Shown here in pieces: positions 358 through 8,069 of a DNA stretch of 64,000 nucleotides. A program made the position numbers and the translations under genes. The stretch is from Candidatus Sulfotelmatobacter sp. (GTDB lineage: Bacteria; Vulcanimicrobiota; Vulcanimicrobiia; Vulcanimicrobiales; Vulcanimicrobiaceae), in assembly GCA_035504415.1 (NCBI GenBank), contig DATJRY010000007.1, positions 1-64,000 of the forward strand, written 5' to 3'. Under the pieces are notes generated by a model. It was not told where the DNA came from, searched no databases, and worked only from the letters and a program-made list of their open reading frames with translations. Every line of letters begins with the position of its first letter. Position 1 is the stretch's first letter.

Positions 358-382
358 CTCGAACACATGTTCGATATAGGAT
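354..382 (+). promoter_or_regulatory. LexA/SOS-box-like operator within a promoter
   Basis: The palindrome TCGAACACATGTTCGA (359-374) matches the Gram-positive/actinobacterial LexA box CGAAC-N4-GTTCG with perfect 6-bp arms. It lies between a -35 TTGACT (354-359) and a -10 TAGGAT (377-382) spaced by 17 bp, the ideal position for repression by steric occlusion. The downstream genes are an RNase H-like protein and a base-excision glycosylase, which fits a DNA-damage regulon. Whether LexA binds here is an inference. Confidence 0.7.
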
Positions 383-395
383 GAACGCACGAGCC

Positions 396-836
396 ATGAC
401 GCAGCAGAAGATCCGCCACCGTTCCGCCGACGTCGCCGTCGGCTACGCCGTGACCCCGGCGGGCCGGGGGATCGCCTACGCGACGATCGCGACCGGAACC
501 GGGCGGACCCTCGCCAAGGTGCCGTTCGGGGCGGTCCCGCTGGGCGCGCTCGACGGGCGGGAGTTCGGCTACGCGGCGCTGACCGCCGTCGCCGGCTACC
601 TGCGGACCAACGGCTTCACCCGCGTGCGGATCCGGCTGGGCGACGGGCGCACCGTCGACGACCTGGCCGCCCGAACCAGCGTCCCGCCCGCCCTGACGAT
701 GGCGTACGTCAAGGCACGCTGCGCACTGCACGGCTTCGCGCTCGCGCGCGTCGAACGGGCGGAACCGGTTGAAACGAACGAGCTCGAAGCGCGCGCCCGC
801 GCCGACATCGCCCAGCGCCCCGCCGCCGCCGCCTGA
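396..836 (+). CDS. RNase H-like fold conserved protein, probable SOS-controlled gene
   Basis: A 146-residue protein (start 396; ATG 381 overlaps the proposed -10 and is less likely). The N-terminal part, with a strand-rich GRGIAYATIATGTGRTLAKV stretch followed by a helix over YAALTAVAGYL and a strand TRVRIRLGDGRTV, has the look of a reverse-transcriptase-type RNase H fold. I cannot point to a complete DEDD catalytic set, so enzymatic activity is uncertain. It is the first gene behind the LexA-like operator and overlaps the glycosylase gene by about 68 bp if that gene starts at 769. Function beyond the fold guess is unknown. Confidence 0.55.
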   Translation: MTQQKIRHRSADVAVGYAVTPAGRGIAYATIATGTGRTLAKVPFGAVPLGALDGREFGYAALTAVAGYLRTNGFTRVRIRLGDGRTVDDLAARTSVPPALTMAYVKARCALHGFALARVERAEPVETNELEARARADIAQRPAAAA

Positions 837-1440
837 GCTCGCCCTCGGCCGGCGGGTGGGTCGCGACGACCTGCCCCTGGAGATCATCGCGCTCTCGCGC
901 GCGCTGATCGGCCTGCTGCTGGTCCGTGTCTACGAGGGTGAGCCGCTGGTCGGGCGGATCGTCGAGACCGAAGCGTACATGCCCGGCGATCCGGCCTCGC
1001 ACGCGTTTCGCGGGCGAACCGCGCGCAACGGCACGATGTTCGGCGACGCGCTGCACGCCTACGTCTACTTCATCTACGGCGTGAACTGGTGCCTCAACGT
1101 GACGGCCGAAGCGCCCGGAATCGCGGCGGCCGCGCTGATCCGCGCCGCCGAGCCGGTGGCGGGGGTGTCGCGCATGCGCGCGCTGCGCGGGCGGCCCGAC
1201 CTGCGCGACCGCGATCTGGCGCGCGGGCCGGGCAACCTCTGCCGGGCGATGGCGATCGGCCCCGAGTTCGACGGCGTCGACTTGGCGGACGACCCGCTGT
1301 TGCGGCTCTACGACGACGGCGTGCGCCCCGAGATCGGGACCAGCGTTCGCATCGGTTTGACCCACGGTGCCGACCGGCCGCTCCGCTTCTACGCGCGCGG
1401 CAACCCGAGCGTCAGTGGACGGCGCGCCTTGTCGCCATGA
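769..1440 (+). CDS. DNA-3-methyladenine glycosylase (AAG/MPG family)
   Basis: This enzyme flips out and excises alkylated purines such as 3-methyladenine and hypoxanthine, the first step of base-excision repair. Family signatures are VGRIVETEAYMPGDPASHAF (catalytic Glu within ETEAY), NGTMFGDALHAYVYFIYG, and RGPGNLCRAMAI. Length from 769 is 223 residues; the first 28 are alanine/proline-rich, and a GTG at 856 would give a 194-residue protein closer to the family core, so the start is open. It is second in the putative SOS operon behind the 359-374 operator, which makes damage-induced expression plausible. Confidence 0.88.
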   Translation: MKRTSSKRAPAPTSPSAPPPPPELALGRRVGRDDLPLEIIALSRALIGLLLVRVYEGEPLVGRIVETEAYMPGDPASHAFRGRTARNGTMFGDALHAYVYFIYGVNWCLNVTAEAPGIAAAALIRAAEPVAGVSRMRALRGRPDLRDRDLARGPGNLCRAMAIGPEFDGVDLADDPLLRLYDDGVRPEIGTSVRIGLTHGADRPLRFYARGNPSVSGRRALSP

Positions 1441-1591: not shown

Positions 1592-2986
1592 CTGCAGTTC
1601 GACAACCGACCCCAGAACAACGGCCGCCCCGAAGGCGGAGGTCGTCGCCGTCGCTCGCGACGCAATCGACAGCGCTACAACGACGGCGGTCCCGCGCCGG
1701 CGCAGAGCGACGTCTTCACCCAACCCGAGTTTCCGCAGCCCGTCGGGCCGCCGCTGCTCTCCGCCGAGCAGCTCGCCGAGATGAGCAAAGCCGAGCTCAA
1801 CGAGCTGGCCAAGACCTTCGAGATCGAGAACCCGACCAAGATCAAGAAGGACGACCTCGTCGCGCAGATCCTCGAGATCCAAGCGCAGCGCAGCGGCCTG
1901 GAGAAGGCCAACGGCGTCCTCGACGTCCTGCCCGAAGGCTACGGGTTCTTGCGCCGCGAGGGCTATCTGGTCGGCACGGACGACATCTACATCTCGCAGT
2001 CGCAGATCCGCCGCTTCGAGCTGCGCCGCGGCGATCTGGTCGCCGGCCAAGTGCGCCGGCCCAAAGAGAACGAGAAGTACTACGGCATCGTCAAGGTCGA
2101 GACGATCAACGGCCGTTCGCCCGAAGCGATCCAGAACCGGCCGGTGTTCGAGCAGCTCGGCGCCGAGCCACCGGAGCACCGCTTCACGCTCGAGACGCGC
2201 GGCGACCTGACGACGCGAGCCATCGATTTGTTCGCACCGCTCGGCAAGGGACAGCGCGCGCTGCTGCTGGCGCCTCCGCGCACGAACGAGAGCGCGCTGT
2301 TGGCGCGGATCGCGCGCGCCTTGGGCACCAACGCGCCCGACGCGCACGTCATCGTGCTGTTGGTCGACGAACGGCCCGAAGCGGTCACGCACCTGCAACG
2401 CTCGCTCGACGTCGAAGTCGTCGCGACGACGTTCGAGGATCATCCGGACAGCCACGTCACGACCGCCGAGCTCGTCTTCGAGCGCGCCAAGCGGCTGGCG
2501 GAGCTCGGCGGCGACGCCGTCGTGCTGATCTCCTCGTTCACACGCCTGGTCCGCGCGTACGCGGCCGGCGCGCACTCCAAAGGCAACCTCGACGCCGCGG
2601 CCCTGACCCGGCCCAAGCGCCTGTTCGGCGCGGCGCGCGCGATCGAGGGCGGCGGTTCGCTGACCGTGCTGGCCGCGATCGGGAACGGCAGCTCGCCGTT
2701 CGACGCGCTGCTGATCGACGAGTTCGCGCCGGCCGCCAACGCCGAGCTGGTGCTGGCGCGCGAGCTGGCCGAAGCGCGGGCCTATCCGCCGATCGACCTG
2801 CTGCGCAGCGGCAACGTCTACGAAGAGCAGCTGCTCAGCGAGATCGCGTGCCACAAGATCGGCGATCTGCGCCGCGCGCTGGCCGGCGTGCCGACGGTCG
2901 AAGCCTCGGAGCGGATCTACGCGGCGTTGGCTCGGACGCAGACGAACGACGAGTTCATCACCGCGTTCGATCTGAAGAAGGTCTGA
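1592..2986 (+). CDS. rho: Rho-family transcription terminator with degenerate Walker A and B
   Basis: The protein aligns by eye with Rho over its whole length: N-terminal helical domain (MSKAELNELAKTFEIENPTK), RNA-binding cold-shock motif GYGFLRREGYLVGTDDIYIS and QSQIRRF, then the RecA-like domain with LLVDERPEAVT (catalytic Glu kept), RPKRLFGAAR and the arginine-finger region IDLLRSGN. The P-loop, APPKAGKT in E. coli, reads APPRTNES (2270-2293), and the Walker B Asp is Ser in VVLISSFTR (2531-2533). The usual ATP-binding lysine is therefore absent. No ATG, GTG or TTG lies between the aag stop and ATG 1781; CTG 1592 has GAGGGAG 7 bp upstream and is my choice. GTG 1367 would overlap aag. Confidence 0.8.
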   Translation: MQFDNRPQNNGRPEGGGRRRRSRRNRQRYNDGGPAPAQSDVFTQPEFPQPVGPPLLSAEQLAEMSKAELNELAKTFEIENPTKIKKDDLVAQILEIQAQRSGLEKANGVLDVLPEGYGFLRREGYLVGTDDIYISQSQIRRFELRRGDLVAGQVRRPKENEKYYGIVKVETINGRSPEAIQNRPVFEQLGAEPPEHRFTLETRGDLTTRAIDLFAPLGKGQRALLLAPPRTNESALLARIARALGTNAPDAHVIVLLVDERPEAVTHLQRSLDVEVVATTFEDHPDSHVTTAELVFERAKRLAELGGDAVVLISSFTRLVRAYAAGAHSKGNLDAAALTRPKRLFGAARAIEGGGSLTVLAAIGNGSSPFDALLIDEFAPAANAELVLARELAEARAYPPIDLLRSGNVYEEQLLSEIACHKIGDLRRALAGVPTVEASERIYAALARTQTNDEFITAFDLKKV

Positions 2987-3732
2987 GGCTCCAGAAGTTC
3001 CTCGCGGCGGCCGGCATCGCGTCGCGCCGCCGCGCGGAAGAGCTGATCGTGGCCGGCCGCGTGCGCGTCGACGGCGCGCTCGTGCGCGAGCTCGGCACGC
3101 AGGTCGGCGAGGACGCGCGGGTCGAGGTCGACGGCAAGCCGGTGCGCGTCAGCGAGACGCGCACCTACCGCGTCGTGCACAAGCCGGTCGGCGTCGTCAC
3201 GACGTTGCGCGACCCCGAAGGCCGGCGCACGATCGCCGAGCTGGTGCGCGGCGCCGGGGTGACCGCCCGCGTCGTTCCGGTCGGCCGGCTCGACTACGAC
3301 ACCAGCGGCGTCCTGTTGGTCACCGACGACGGCGCGCTCGCGCACGTCCTGACCCATCCGCGGTTCGGCGTCGAGAAGACGTACCGCGCGACGGTACGCG
3401 GCCGGCTCGAGCCGGGCGACGTCGAGAAGGTCTTGCAGGGCGTGCGGCTCGAGGAGGGCCGCGCCGCGCCGGCCCAGGTGCGCGTGGTCGCCGTGCGCCG
3501 TGACGTCTCGCTGGTCGACCTCACGCTGCACGAGGGCCGCAACCGTCAAGTGCGGCGCATGTTCGAGACCCTCGGACATCCGGTGCTCGCGCTCACGCGG
3601 CTGCGCTTCGGGCCGATCGCGCTGGGCGCGCTGCCGGTCGGCGGGGTCCGCCCGCTCAGCGAGCGGGAGCTCGCGGCGCTGCGTCGCATCGTGGCGGATG
3701 CACATACGGACGCGACGCCGGCCCGGACCTGA
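2983..3732 (+). CDS. rluB: RluB/RsuA-type rRNA pseudouridine synthase
   Basis: It isomerises a uridine of large- or small-subunit rRNA to pseudouridine. The N-terminal S4 RNA-binding domain begins RLQKFLAAAGIASRRRAEEL, and the catalytic domain carries VGRLDYDTSGVLLVTDDG with the catalytic Asp, then EKTYRATVRG and HEGRNRQVRRMFETLGHPV. The family normally begins M-R-L-Q-K-F, which here would require CTG 2983 as start, overlapping the rho stop as CTGA. The only other start in frame is GTG 2848, deep inside rho and followed by non-family sequence. Length from CTG is 249 residues, normal for the family. Confidence 0.88.
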   Translation: MRLQKFLAAAGIASRRRAEELIVAGRVRVDGALVRELGTQVGEDARVEVDGKPVRVSETRTYRVVHKPVGVVTTLRDPEGRRTIAELVRGAGVTARVVPVGRLDYDTSGVLLVTDDGALAHVLTHPRFGVEKTYRATVRGRLEPGDVEKVLQGVRLEEGRAAPAQVRVVAVRRDVSLVDLTLHEGRNRQVRRMFETLGHPVLALTRLRFGPIALGALPVGGVRPLSERELAALRRIVADAHTDATPART

Positions 3733-3738
3733 GCGCCG

Positions 3739-4122
3739 ATGATGCTGCGCGGGATTCGCGGGGCGACGACGGTCGCGCGGGACGAGCCCGCGCTCATCCT
3801 CGACGCGACCGAGCGCTTGTTGCGCACGATCGTCGACCGCAACCGGTTCGTCCCCGAGGACGTCGGTTCGGCGCTGTTCACGGTCACGCCGGACTTGGTC
3901 TCCGAGTTTCCGGCCGCGGCGGCGCGCCGGATGGGCTGGACGCTGGTGCCGCTGCTCAACTTCACCGAGATCGGCGTCCCCGGCCGGCTGCAGCGCTGCA
4001 TTCGGGTCATGGTGCACGTCAATACCGAGCTGCGCCAGGACGAGATCGTGCACGTCTACCTCGAGGGAGCGGTCGTGTTGCGCCCCGACTTGGTCAGCCC
4101 CGGCGATTCGGAACGGGCCTGA
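3739..4122 (+). CDS. aroH: Monofunctional chorismate mutase, AroH type
   Basis: This trimeric enzyme rearranges chorismate to prephenate in phenylalanine/tyrosine synthesis. The 127-residue sequence is a clear AroH-class (B. subtilis) member: MLRGIRGATTVARDEPALIL, NRFVPEDVGSALFTVTPDL, EFPAAAARRMGWTLVPLL and RCIRVMVHVNT with the active-site arginine. ATGATG gives two adjacent starts, 3739 and 3742. It lies 6 bp behind rluB and is probably co-transcribed with it. Confidence 0.93.
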   Translation: MMLRGIRGATTVARDEPALILDATERLLRTIVDRNRFVPEDVGSALFTVTPDLVSEFPAAAARRMGWTLVPLLNFTEIGVPGRLQRCIRVMVHVNTELRQDEIVHVYLEGAVVLRPDLVSPGDSERA

Positions 4123-5731: not shown

Positions 5732-6394
5732 GTGAATTTCTCAGAATTCTTCAACTTCATCGTCGCGGGCGGCTTCGCGATGTGGGTGCTGCTCTTGCTC
5801 TCGGTGGTCGCAGTCGCGATCGTGATCGAGCGGCTGCTCTTCTTCGCGAGCCAGCACTCGGACTCGAAGGGCCTGCTCAAGCAGATCGGCCAGAGAATCG
5901 CCGCCGACGACCTGTCGGGCGCGATCAAGATCTGCAAGCAGAACAAGGGCATGCTCCCGAAGATCCTCGAGTTCGGCTTGCAGCGCGGTGAGAAGAACCG
6001 CGCCGACATCACCGACGCGCTGTCGATCGCGCTGATGGAGAACCTGAACTCGCTCGAGCGCAACCTCGGCGTCATCGGTACGATCGCCGTCATCGCGCCG
6101 TTCGTCGGTCTGTTCGGTACCGTGCTCGGTATCATCCGCGCCTTCCAAGACATCGCCCTCAAGGGCAACTCGACCCCGGCCGTCGTCGCGGCGGGCGTCT
6201 CGGAAGCGCTGATCACGACCGCCGCCGGTCTGTTCGTCGCCGTCGTCTCGGTGGTGTTCTTCAACTACTTCAAGACGCGGATCAAGGCGTACAACCAGGA
6301 GATGATCGTCGCCTCGAACCAGCTCGCCGAGATGCTGCACTTCCACAACACCGGTGCGGCGATCCCGACCGACCTGTACCAGCCGGCGAAGTAG
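5732..6394 (+). CDS. exbB: MotA/TolQ/ExbB proton-channel protein
   Basis: This is the pentameric channel subunit that, with ExbD, uses the proton gradient to energise TonB. The 220 residues hold an N-terminal membrane helix (MWVLLLLSVVAVAIVIERLLFF), a cytoplasmic loop, then the family signature with two helices: NLGVIGTIAVIAPFVGLFGT and SEALITTAAGLFVAVVSVVF. The second contains the conserved ALITTAAGL pore motif. The start is GTG 5732; GGAGG is at 5713-5717, about 14 bp upstream. First gene of the exbB-exbD-exbD-tonB operon. Confidence 0.93.
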   Translation: MNFSEFFNFIVAGGFAMWVLLLLSVVAVAIVIERLLFFASQHSDSKGLLKQIGQRIAADDLSGAIKICKQNKGMLPKILEFGLQRGEKNRADITDALSIALMENLNSLERNLGVIGTIAVIAPFVGLFGTVLGIIRAFQDIALKGNSTPAVVAAGVSEALITTAAGLFVAVVSVVFFNYFKTRIKAYNQEMIVASNQLAEMLHFHNTGAAIPTDLYQPAK

Positions 6395-6431
6395 GGTCTA
6401 GGCTGAACCTCCGGACCGAAGGACTCGACTC

Positions 6432-6845
6432 ATGAGCATGGTCTCCTCCCAACAGGACGATCAGGTGATGGCCGAGATCAACATCACGCCGTTCACGGAC
6501 GTGCTGCTGGTCCTGCTCATCATCTTCATGATCCTGGCCGCCCTGGTCGCGCCGCCCGGCTTCGAGAAGCAGCTGCCCAACAGCGACAACAGCCCCCCGA
6601 CGCATCAGGCCAAGAAGTCTGACGACATCGAGGTGCTGGTCAACGAGAAGGGCACGATCTTCGTCGATGGCAAGAAGTCGGACGACGTACACATCTACGG
6701 CGACATGCAAGCCGTCGAGAAGGCCAAGGGCAACAAGCACGTCTCGCTGACCGCCGACGTGAAGGCGCCGTACGGCACCATCATCCGCATCCTCGACGCC
6801 GCGAAGATCGCCGGTCTGAACGACGTCGGCTTCGTCACCTCGTAG
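6432..6845 (+). CDS. exbD: ExbD/TolR biopolymer transport protein (first copy)
   Basis: The 137-residue protein has the classic layout: short cytoplasmic N-terminus, INITPFTDVLLVLLIIFMIL membrane helix with the proton-carrying Asp23, and a periplasmic domain ending KIAGLNDVGFVT. It pairs with ExbB as the stator component. ATGs at 6432 and 6438 are both possible. Followed 24 bp later by a second, clearly paralogous exbD. Confidence 0.93.
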   Translation: MSMVSSQQDDQVMAEINITPFTDVLLVLLIIFMILAALVAPPGFEKQLPNSDNSPPTHQAKKSDDIEVLVNEKGTIFVDGKKSDDVHIYGDMQAVEKAKGNKHVSLTADVKAPYGTIIRILDAAKIAGLNDVGFVTS

Positions 6846-6869
6846 TCCCGCAGAAGGAACCCCGCTCAC

Positions 6870-7298
6870 GTGGCCGTTTCCACCGGACAAGGCGAAGAAG
6901 AAGTGATGTCGACGATCAACATCACGCCGTTCACGGACGTGCTGTTGGTCTTGCTCATCATCTTCATCATCCTCGCCTCGGTCGTCAAAGAGCCGAAGCT
7001 CCCCGACGCCTATAACAAAGAGAAGGTCCATCCGTCGCAGATCGTCGTGCTGGTCGACGACAAGAACCACGTCCAGATCGGCTCCAACATCGTCGACGAG
7101 ATGCAGGCCAAAGAGCAGTTCGCGGAACTGGTCAAGGCGACGGGCAGCGGTCTGAAGACGGTCATCATCAAGGCGGACCCGCACGCCAGTTTCGGCACGA
7201 TCCTGCGCGTCATGGACGCCGCGAAGTCGGCCCACCTGGATACCTTCGGCCTTGCCAACCACGTGCAAGGAACGCCGCAAGGACAATCGGGCGGCTAA
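6870..7298 (+). CDS. exbD: ExbD/TolR biopolymer transport protein (second copy)
   Basis: 142 residues, GTG start at 6870, helix INITPFTDVLLVLLIIFIIL with Asp23, then a periplasmic domain ending SAHLDTFGLANHVQGT and a Gly/Gln-rich tail. The membrane segment is nearly identical to the preceding copy while the periplasmic parts differ, suggesting an ExbB5-ExbD heterodimer rather than a recent duplication. The stop TAA at 7296-7298 directly abuts the tonB ATG. Confidence 0.92.
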   Translation: MAVSTGQGEEEVMSTINITPFTDVLLVLLIIFIILASVVKEPKLPDAYNKEKVHPSQIVVLVDDKNHVQIGSNIVDEMQAKEQFAELVKATGSGLKTVIIKADPHASFGTILRVMDAAKSAHLDTFGLANHVQGTPQGQSGG

Positions 7299-8069
7299 AT
7301 GGCGACGACACCGACTCCCCCCAAGCCTACGCCGCCGCCTTCGACGGCAGACCGGGCCAAGAACTTCTTGGCCTACGGGTTCGTCATCTCGGTCATCCTG
7401 CATCTGTTGATCGGGCCGTTCATTCAGTTCCACAACACGCAGACGGAAGAAGAAGCGCCGCAAAAGGTGACGGTCGTGCGCGTTCCCACGCCGCCGCCGA
7501 CGCCGCCGCCGACGCCCAAGCCGACGCCGACGCCCAAACCGACGCCGCCGCCCAAGGTGACGCCGGTGCCGCAGACGCCCGCGCCGCAGCAGCCCAGGAT
7601 CAAGATCAACACGCTCAAGACCGAGTCGCACAGCGGCGGTCCGAGCGAGGCCGCCAACAAGTACACGACGGGGAACACCCAAGGCATCCCGCAGGGCCAA
7701 GGCACCGCGGCGCCGGTCAACGCGCCGGCGGCCACGCCCGCGCCCCCGCCGCCGACCCCGACGCCGGTCCCCACGCCGACGCCGCTGGCGTGCGCGCACC
7801 CCAACGTGGCCGCGACGACGATTCGCGCGGTCGAGCCCGACATGCCGCCGATCGCGGCGCAGCAGGGCATCTCCGGCACCGTGCAGGTGCAGGTCTCGCT
7901 CGACGACCACAGCCGCGTCACCAGCGTCAAGGTCTACAGCTCGCCCAGCGCGCTGCTCAACAACGCGGCGCTCAGCGCGGCCCGCCAGTCGACGTTCCAA
8001 ACCGACGTCAAAGACTGCAAGCCGGTCGCCGCCGACTACCTCTTCAGCGTCACCTTCGACAGCCAATAG
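7299..8069 (+). CDS. tonB: TonB-family energy transducer
   Basis: Residues 28-45 (YGFVISVILHLLIGPFIQF) form the N-terminal anchor with the His typical of TonB SHLS-type helices. Residues about 65-105 are a Pro/Thr/Lys-rich periplasmic spacer. The C-terminal domain (about 165-256) carries QQGISGTVQVQVSLDDHSRVTSVKVYSSPSALLNNAALSAAR, a TonB_C fold that contacts outer-membrane receptors. Two cysteines (ACAHPN and DCKPV) bracket this domain and may form a disulfide. The ATG follows the exbD stop with no gap. Confidence 0.9.
   Translation: MATTPTPPKPTPPPSTADRAKNFLAYGFVISVILHLLIGPFIQFHNTQTEEEAPQKVTVVRVPTPPPTPPPTPKPTPTPKPTPPPKVTPVPQTPAPQQPRIKINTLKTESHSGGPSEAANKYTTGNTQGIPQGQGTAAPVNAPAATPAPPPPTPTPVPTPTPLACAHPNVAATTIRAVEPDMPPIAAQQGISGTVQVQVSLDDHSRVTSVKVYSSPSALLNNAALSAARQSTFQTDVKDCKPVAADYLFSVTFDSQ

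Follow-up and report, generated by a model that had tools for sequence, protein, structure and literature searches.

The sole Rho of a genus of Vulcanimicrobiota is predicted to be motor-dead while retaining a conserved RNA-binding domain

Results

The stretch of DNA analyzed here, which we call the window, comprises 64,000 nucleotides from a genome (G000) of Candidatus Sulfotelmatobacter sp., a soil bacterium. It carries a gene for the transcription termination factor Rho, flanked by genes for a DNA-3-methyladenine glycosylase (MPG) and an RluB-like pseudouridine synthase. Rho is a ring-shaped motor that provides the means of stopping transcription in most bacteria, and it is among the most conserved of bacterial motors. 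The features of the locus are listed below, with motor and RNA-binding residues assigned by alignment.

769..1440, + strand, MPG, upstream neighbor (NCBIfam NF002003; synteny)
1592..2986, + strand, rho coding sequence, predicted motor-dead, 464 aa, probable CTG start (TIGR00767 match; homologous start region in relatives)
1592..1762, + strand, Arg-rich N-terminal tail, aa 1-57, predicted disordered (sequence; pLDDT <50 for aa 1-53)
1763..1900, + strand, Rho_N helical domain, aa 58-103 (PF07498, E 6e-9)
1901..2131, + strand, OB-fold RNA-binding domain, aa 104-180 (PF07497, E 1.5e-32; omega 0.11)
1940..2080, + strand, stretch with the primary RNA-binding residues (E. coli numbering)
2144..2911, + strand, RecA-like former motor domain, aa 185-440 (predicted fold intact; omega 0.28)
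2270..2293, + strand, destroyed Walker A, APPRTNES for APPKAGKT
2369..2374, + strand, equivalents of the catalytic Glu and the Arg valve (E211, R212), still there, in DERPEA
2519..2545, + strand, destroyed Walker B, VVLISSFTR
2561..2593, + strand, Q-loop (secondary RNA site), replaced and shortened
2678..2749, + strand, R-loop and GTGNMEL stretch, replaced (GNGSSPF...DEFAPAANAEL)
2816..2818, + strand, V409, equivalent of the arginine finger R366
2983..3732, + strand, rluB-like pseudouridine synthase, downstream neighbor, probable CTG start (TIGR00093)
3739..4122, + strand, next downstream ORF, putative AroH (chorismate mutase) by eye (84% identity in G126; conserved in the genus of the window's Rho)

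The frame and coordinates given to the rho ORF by a first-pass annotation were correct. Its product matches TIGR00767 with an E value of 2.7e-130 and 435 bits, short of the curated cut-off of 509, and the intact Rho of a related genome (G118) scores 543 bits with the same model. The match to NF006886 (432.5 bits) lies above that model's cut-off of 315, and PF07498 (Rho_N), PF07497 (Rho_RNA_bind), and PF00006 (RecA-like ATPase) all exceed their gathering scores. Judged from its sequence, with Rho_N, OB, and RecA domains at the ancestral locus, the ORF is a true Rho ortholog. Its closest named relatives, at 80-85% identity, are metagenome-assembled Candidatus Eremiobacterota, a phylum now named Vulcanimicrobiota.

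Translation of rho apparently starts at the rare codon CTG (window 1592; relatives L001, L089-L118), with ATC or ATT in two relatives, and the conserved leader 5' of the start carries a GAGAG/GAGGGAG ribosome-binding stretch. In the genus of the window's Rho, hereafter g1, this leader can pair (CUCCC-CGA-GGGAG), possibly reflecting translational self-control of rho. The apparent CTG start of rluB overlaps the rho stop in G000 (CTGA, 2983-2986) and similarly in G120, an arrangement absent from the other species.

Protein searches and searches with TIGR00767 and PF07497 found no second Rho in G000 or in G119, a g1 genome 99% complete in a single contig of 3,508,363 bases (G+C 68.6% within the 400 kb sampled). 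The OB domain (PF07497) occurs once in each of the two genomes, and the remaining TIGR00767 matches, at about 70 bits or less, cover the ATPase core only and correspond to remote RecA-like ATPases. A missing paralog is excluded because the same motor loss is also found in single-contig G119. For comparison, the complete genome of the cultured Vulcanimicrobium alpinum WC8-2 measures 3.50 Mbp with 68.4% G+C (PMC9758169). The earlier suggestion of a second Rho, with which the protein would co-assemble or compete, therefore falls away, as a sole Rho cannot modulate an active one.

Residues were compared in an alignment with about 40 relatives using E. coli Rho numbering, with APPKAGKT, E211, R212, and R366 verified as landmarks in the E. 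coli sequence. Its positions match those of PMC11718236, in which R366 is the arginine finger. The alignment confirmed two observations of the first-pass annotation, namely that the P-loop reads APPRTNES (A227-PPRTNES-234) and that Walker B reads VVLISSFTR with the aspartate replaced by serine (the D265 equivalent is S314, 2531-2533). The product has no equivalents of E. coli K184, T185, and D265, and the K181 position holds a conserved R. The catalytic Glu region had also been recognized correctly as kept, and DERPEA is present in all g1 sequences. The arginine finger, in contrast, had been described as kept and is not: GTRKEE in E. coli corresponds to GNVYEE here, and the R366 position is V, F, M, W, or S across g1. 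Previously unmentioned were the losses of the Q-loop, which is deleted or replaced across g1, and of the R-loop and GTGNMEL stretch, the R-loop being replaced throughout the genus. The window's Rho thus lacks GKT, the Walker B Asp, R366, and the Q- and R-loops and keeps the E211 region, a pattern that argues strongly for the pseudo-ATPase proposed at first. A shifted but intact P-loop is excluded by the alignment, and a sequencing error at the motor motifs by their recurrence in eight independently assembled species.

The retention of the OB RNA-binding motifs also held up. The ten primary-site positions examined (E. coli 62, 64, 66, 78, 80, 102, 105, 108, 109, and 110) read Y F R D Y R K E K Y, the same letters as in the aligned full-length intact Rhos of the phylum.

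All eight full-length g1 sequences (G000, G119-G124, and G128) show the motor loss, with P-loop replacement letters that differ by species (TNES, TNDA, ANDA, ADDA, ADEA, and SNEA); what is conserved among relatives is the loss, not the substitute. The P-loop is likewise destroyed (PPRVDATS) in the sister genus g27 (G091 and G092), where E211, the Q-loop, and the R-loop are lost and D265, R366, and the primary-site residues are kept in both members. G118 (g37) has the Walker motifs, E211, and R366. A Rho tree built from residues 58-205, the non-motor half, united g1 and g27 with a support of 97 and placed G118 outside with 98; with residues 58-460, both values rose to 100. The motor-dead Rho is nested within the Rho family, and contamination or horizontal transfer is excluded by synteny together with this tree. 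A single motor inactivation before the g1/g27 split would be the simplest history. The rpoB tree conflicts with the Rho tree in grouping G118 with g27 (support 83-89), a placement that would require two independent motor losses.

Selection was assessed by simple counting estimates of omega (NG86 type) rather than likelihood tests. Within g1, omega is 0.283 for the RecA domain (bootstrap 0.225-0.351), 0.106 for the OB domain (0.046-0.187), and 0.178 for Rho_N, compared with 0.012-0.047 for RecA and 0.03-0.12 for OB in intact genera. Since the RecA value is raised and the OB value resembles that of intact Rhos, the motor domain of g1 has been released while the RNA-binding domain is still strongly constrained. 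The two g27 species show zero amino-acid differences in Rho_N and OB. About 320 neutral changes per lineage would be expected to leave about 8 stops in an unconstrained frame, and no stop or frameshift was observed in the eight full-length g1 and two g27 sequences.

AlphaFold2, run with 25 sequences, returned a mean pLDDT of 82.6, with values >90 for most folded residues and disorder predicted in the tail (residues 1-53). The 50 best PDB matches listed were all Rho, for example 6xav_A (361 columns, 1.6 A). The model suggests that the fold is kept despite the loss of catalytic residues, although a predictor trained on Rho structures may overstate this.

The order MPG-rho-rluB is common to intact and dead Rho loci. 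In eight genomes from eight genera (G077, G129, G090, G094, G079, G059, G095, and G036), rluB directly follows MPG and rho has been excised cleanly; as the MPG-rluB junction is intact, the absence of rho there is not an assembly gap. G035 has no Rho and no MPG beside rluB, and G126, which gave the appearance of lacking Rho but in which rluB lies at a contig edge, was left out of the Rho-less count. On the rpoB tree, which does not include G095 and G036, the placeable Rho-less genomes fall into one clade with g1, g27, and G118 (support 95-100), and the sister clade contains intact Rhos only. Rho loss in the family is lineage-wide and seems to be unreported.

A separate case is G107, which has lost rho at the MPG-rluB locus but has, at another site, a Rho-like gene that is divergent and apparently broken (G107:C39, L332, ~360-1010, minus strand). 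There the P-loop GATRAGKTE is present, the E211 region is changed, and the C-terminal part is apparently frameshifted close to an N.

Intrinsic terminators were sought in a crude scan of 400 kb each of G119 (dead Rho), G042 (intact Rho), and G077 (no Rho). Terminator-like sites numbered 7.5, 13.8, and 11.5 per 100 kb, respectively, and a hairpin with a T-tract stood at 5.9%, 9.5%, and 8.9% of convergent gene ends, values that provide weak evidence and serve as a lead only because genes were called roughly and the three genomes differ in G+C. Within these limits, neither G119 nor G077 showed a compensating rise over G042. Very few hairpin and U-tract terminator-like sites accompany the dead Rho of G119 (L238-L257). 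The NusG KOW domain is equally conserved in lineages with dead, absent, and intact Rho and is uninformative. The scan result resembles the situation described for a Rho-less cyanobacterium, in which canonical intrinsic terminators account for a minority of transcript ends (PMC13289151).

Discussion

The conserved sole Rho of g1, with a motor that its residues predict to be dead, is real and would surprise a specialist. We think it probable that a vertically inherited sole Rho is now retained as a motorless RNA-binding protein in a lineage without Rho-motor termination. Its motifs for binding ATP, hydrolyzing ATP, and translocating RNA have been lost in g1 and g27, most simply in their common ancestor; the frame has stayed open from then on, and purifying selection on the RNA-binding half is strong. 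We infer that the OB-fold sites would still let the protein bind nascent RNA that is single-stranded and C-rich. It would probably do so in multimeric form, perhaps close to RNA polymerase, and would be unable to close on RNA, hydrolyze ATP, or translocate. Its cellular role may then be that of a passive RNA-bound factor that covers RNA, alters pausing, or guides other RNA factors. In Mycobacterium tuberculosis Rho, mutating just the catalytic Glu is enough to abolish ATP hydrolysis and to inhibit termination, and neither oligomerization nor RNA binding changes drastically (PMC4499133). As a counterpoint, the RecA omega is well below 1 and E211/R212 are kept, so that some nucleotide-linked role is conceivable. 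The first-pass annotation had expected unusual termination chemistry if this were the only rho; that is possible, yet the comparative data would be better fitted by abandonment of Rho-motor termination because rho has been deleted outright at the same locus in eight genomes of related genera.

Whether Rho can act without translocation is an old dispute. It is conceivable, though we consider it unlikely, that the window's Rho binds nascent RNA and RNA polymerase and inactivates the elongation complex allosterically, ending or holding transcription without translocation, which, if true, would be a natural example of Rho terminating transcription independently of ATP, in a phylum with cultured members. 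The genome has no other Rho, the crude scan detected no compensating intrinsic terminators, and open-ring E. coli Rho on the elongation complex has been interpreted as allosteric priming (PMC9908020). However, the same E. coli studies postulate ring closure and translocation to finish the process (PMC9908020), the Q- and R-loops are lost here, and the sister genera are viable without any Rho.

We regard slow pseudogenization as rather improbable too. Under it, rho would be useless in the clade and on its way out, as in the sister genera, with residual constraint; the eight related genomes that have already deleted it, and a RecA domain whose evolution is several-fold faster than that of its intact counterparts, are what such decay would look like. 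Against it stand the open frames in all ten g1 and g27 sequences, the OB omega of g1, the unchanged Rho_N and OB of the g27 pair, and the Rho tree, on which the loss is older than the g1/g27 split.

That substitute residues still bind and hydrolyze nucleotide is very improbable: E211/R212 and the R at the K181 position are conserved and the RecA domain is still under constraint, but the P-loop has lost its glycine, its lysine, and its threonine, and both their replacements and the R366 position vary between species. Least credible of all is that the frame is kept merely as a translated spacer for rluB expression, an idea prompted by the rho-rluB overlap in G000 and G120 and contradicted by the different junctions of other species, by rluB directly following MPG in Rho-less genomes, and by selection at the amino-acid level.

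The protein that we favor as a retained motorless RNA-binding Rho shares domains, fold, and primary RNA-binding residues with canonical Rho (TIGR00767; structures from E. coli, Thermotoga, Thermus, and M. tuberculosis), and its locus is orthologous to that of the intact Rhos of the phylum; it differs in the loss of Walker A, the Walker B Asp, the Q-loop, the R-loop, and the arginine finger and in scoring below the TIGR00767 cut-off. The short-form Rho2 paralog (NF041509) is likewise a Rho-family relative, but the window protein scores 330 bits, far below the 628-bit cut-off, and has no primary Rho alongside it. Rho-less bacteria, cyanobacteria and others, make up about 8% of species (PMC4499133, PMC13289151) and likewise have no Rho motor, whereas g1 and g27 have retained the gene under selection and their sister genera have deleted it. 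M. tuberculosis Rho, a weak enzyme, was once proposed to be motor-independent (PMC4499133, PMC8828861); unlike the protein described here, it has conserved catalytic residues and has been shown to need its motor. We found no earlier report of an inactive natural Rho, or of Rho in this phylum, in the open-licence literature.

Within one family, the same locus can hold an active motor, a protein that is motor-dead yet under selection, or no rho at all after a clean deletion, and these three states side by side separate RNA binding from motor action in nature. These G+C-rich bacteria raise the question of how their transcripts end, given that no Rho motor was seen and U-tract terminators were not abundant. 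Bicyclomycin should have no target in a motor-dead Rho, and resistance is predicted. Elsewhere in the window, at 5732-8069, we noted by eye a cluster of ORFs resembling ExbB, two ExbD, and a TonB-like protein.
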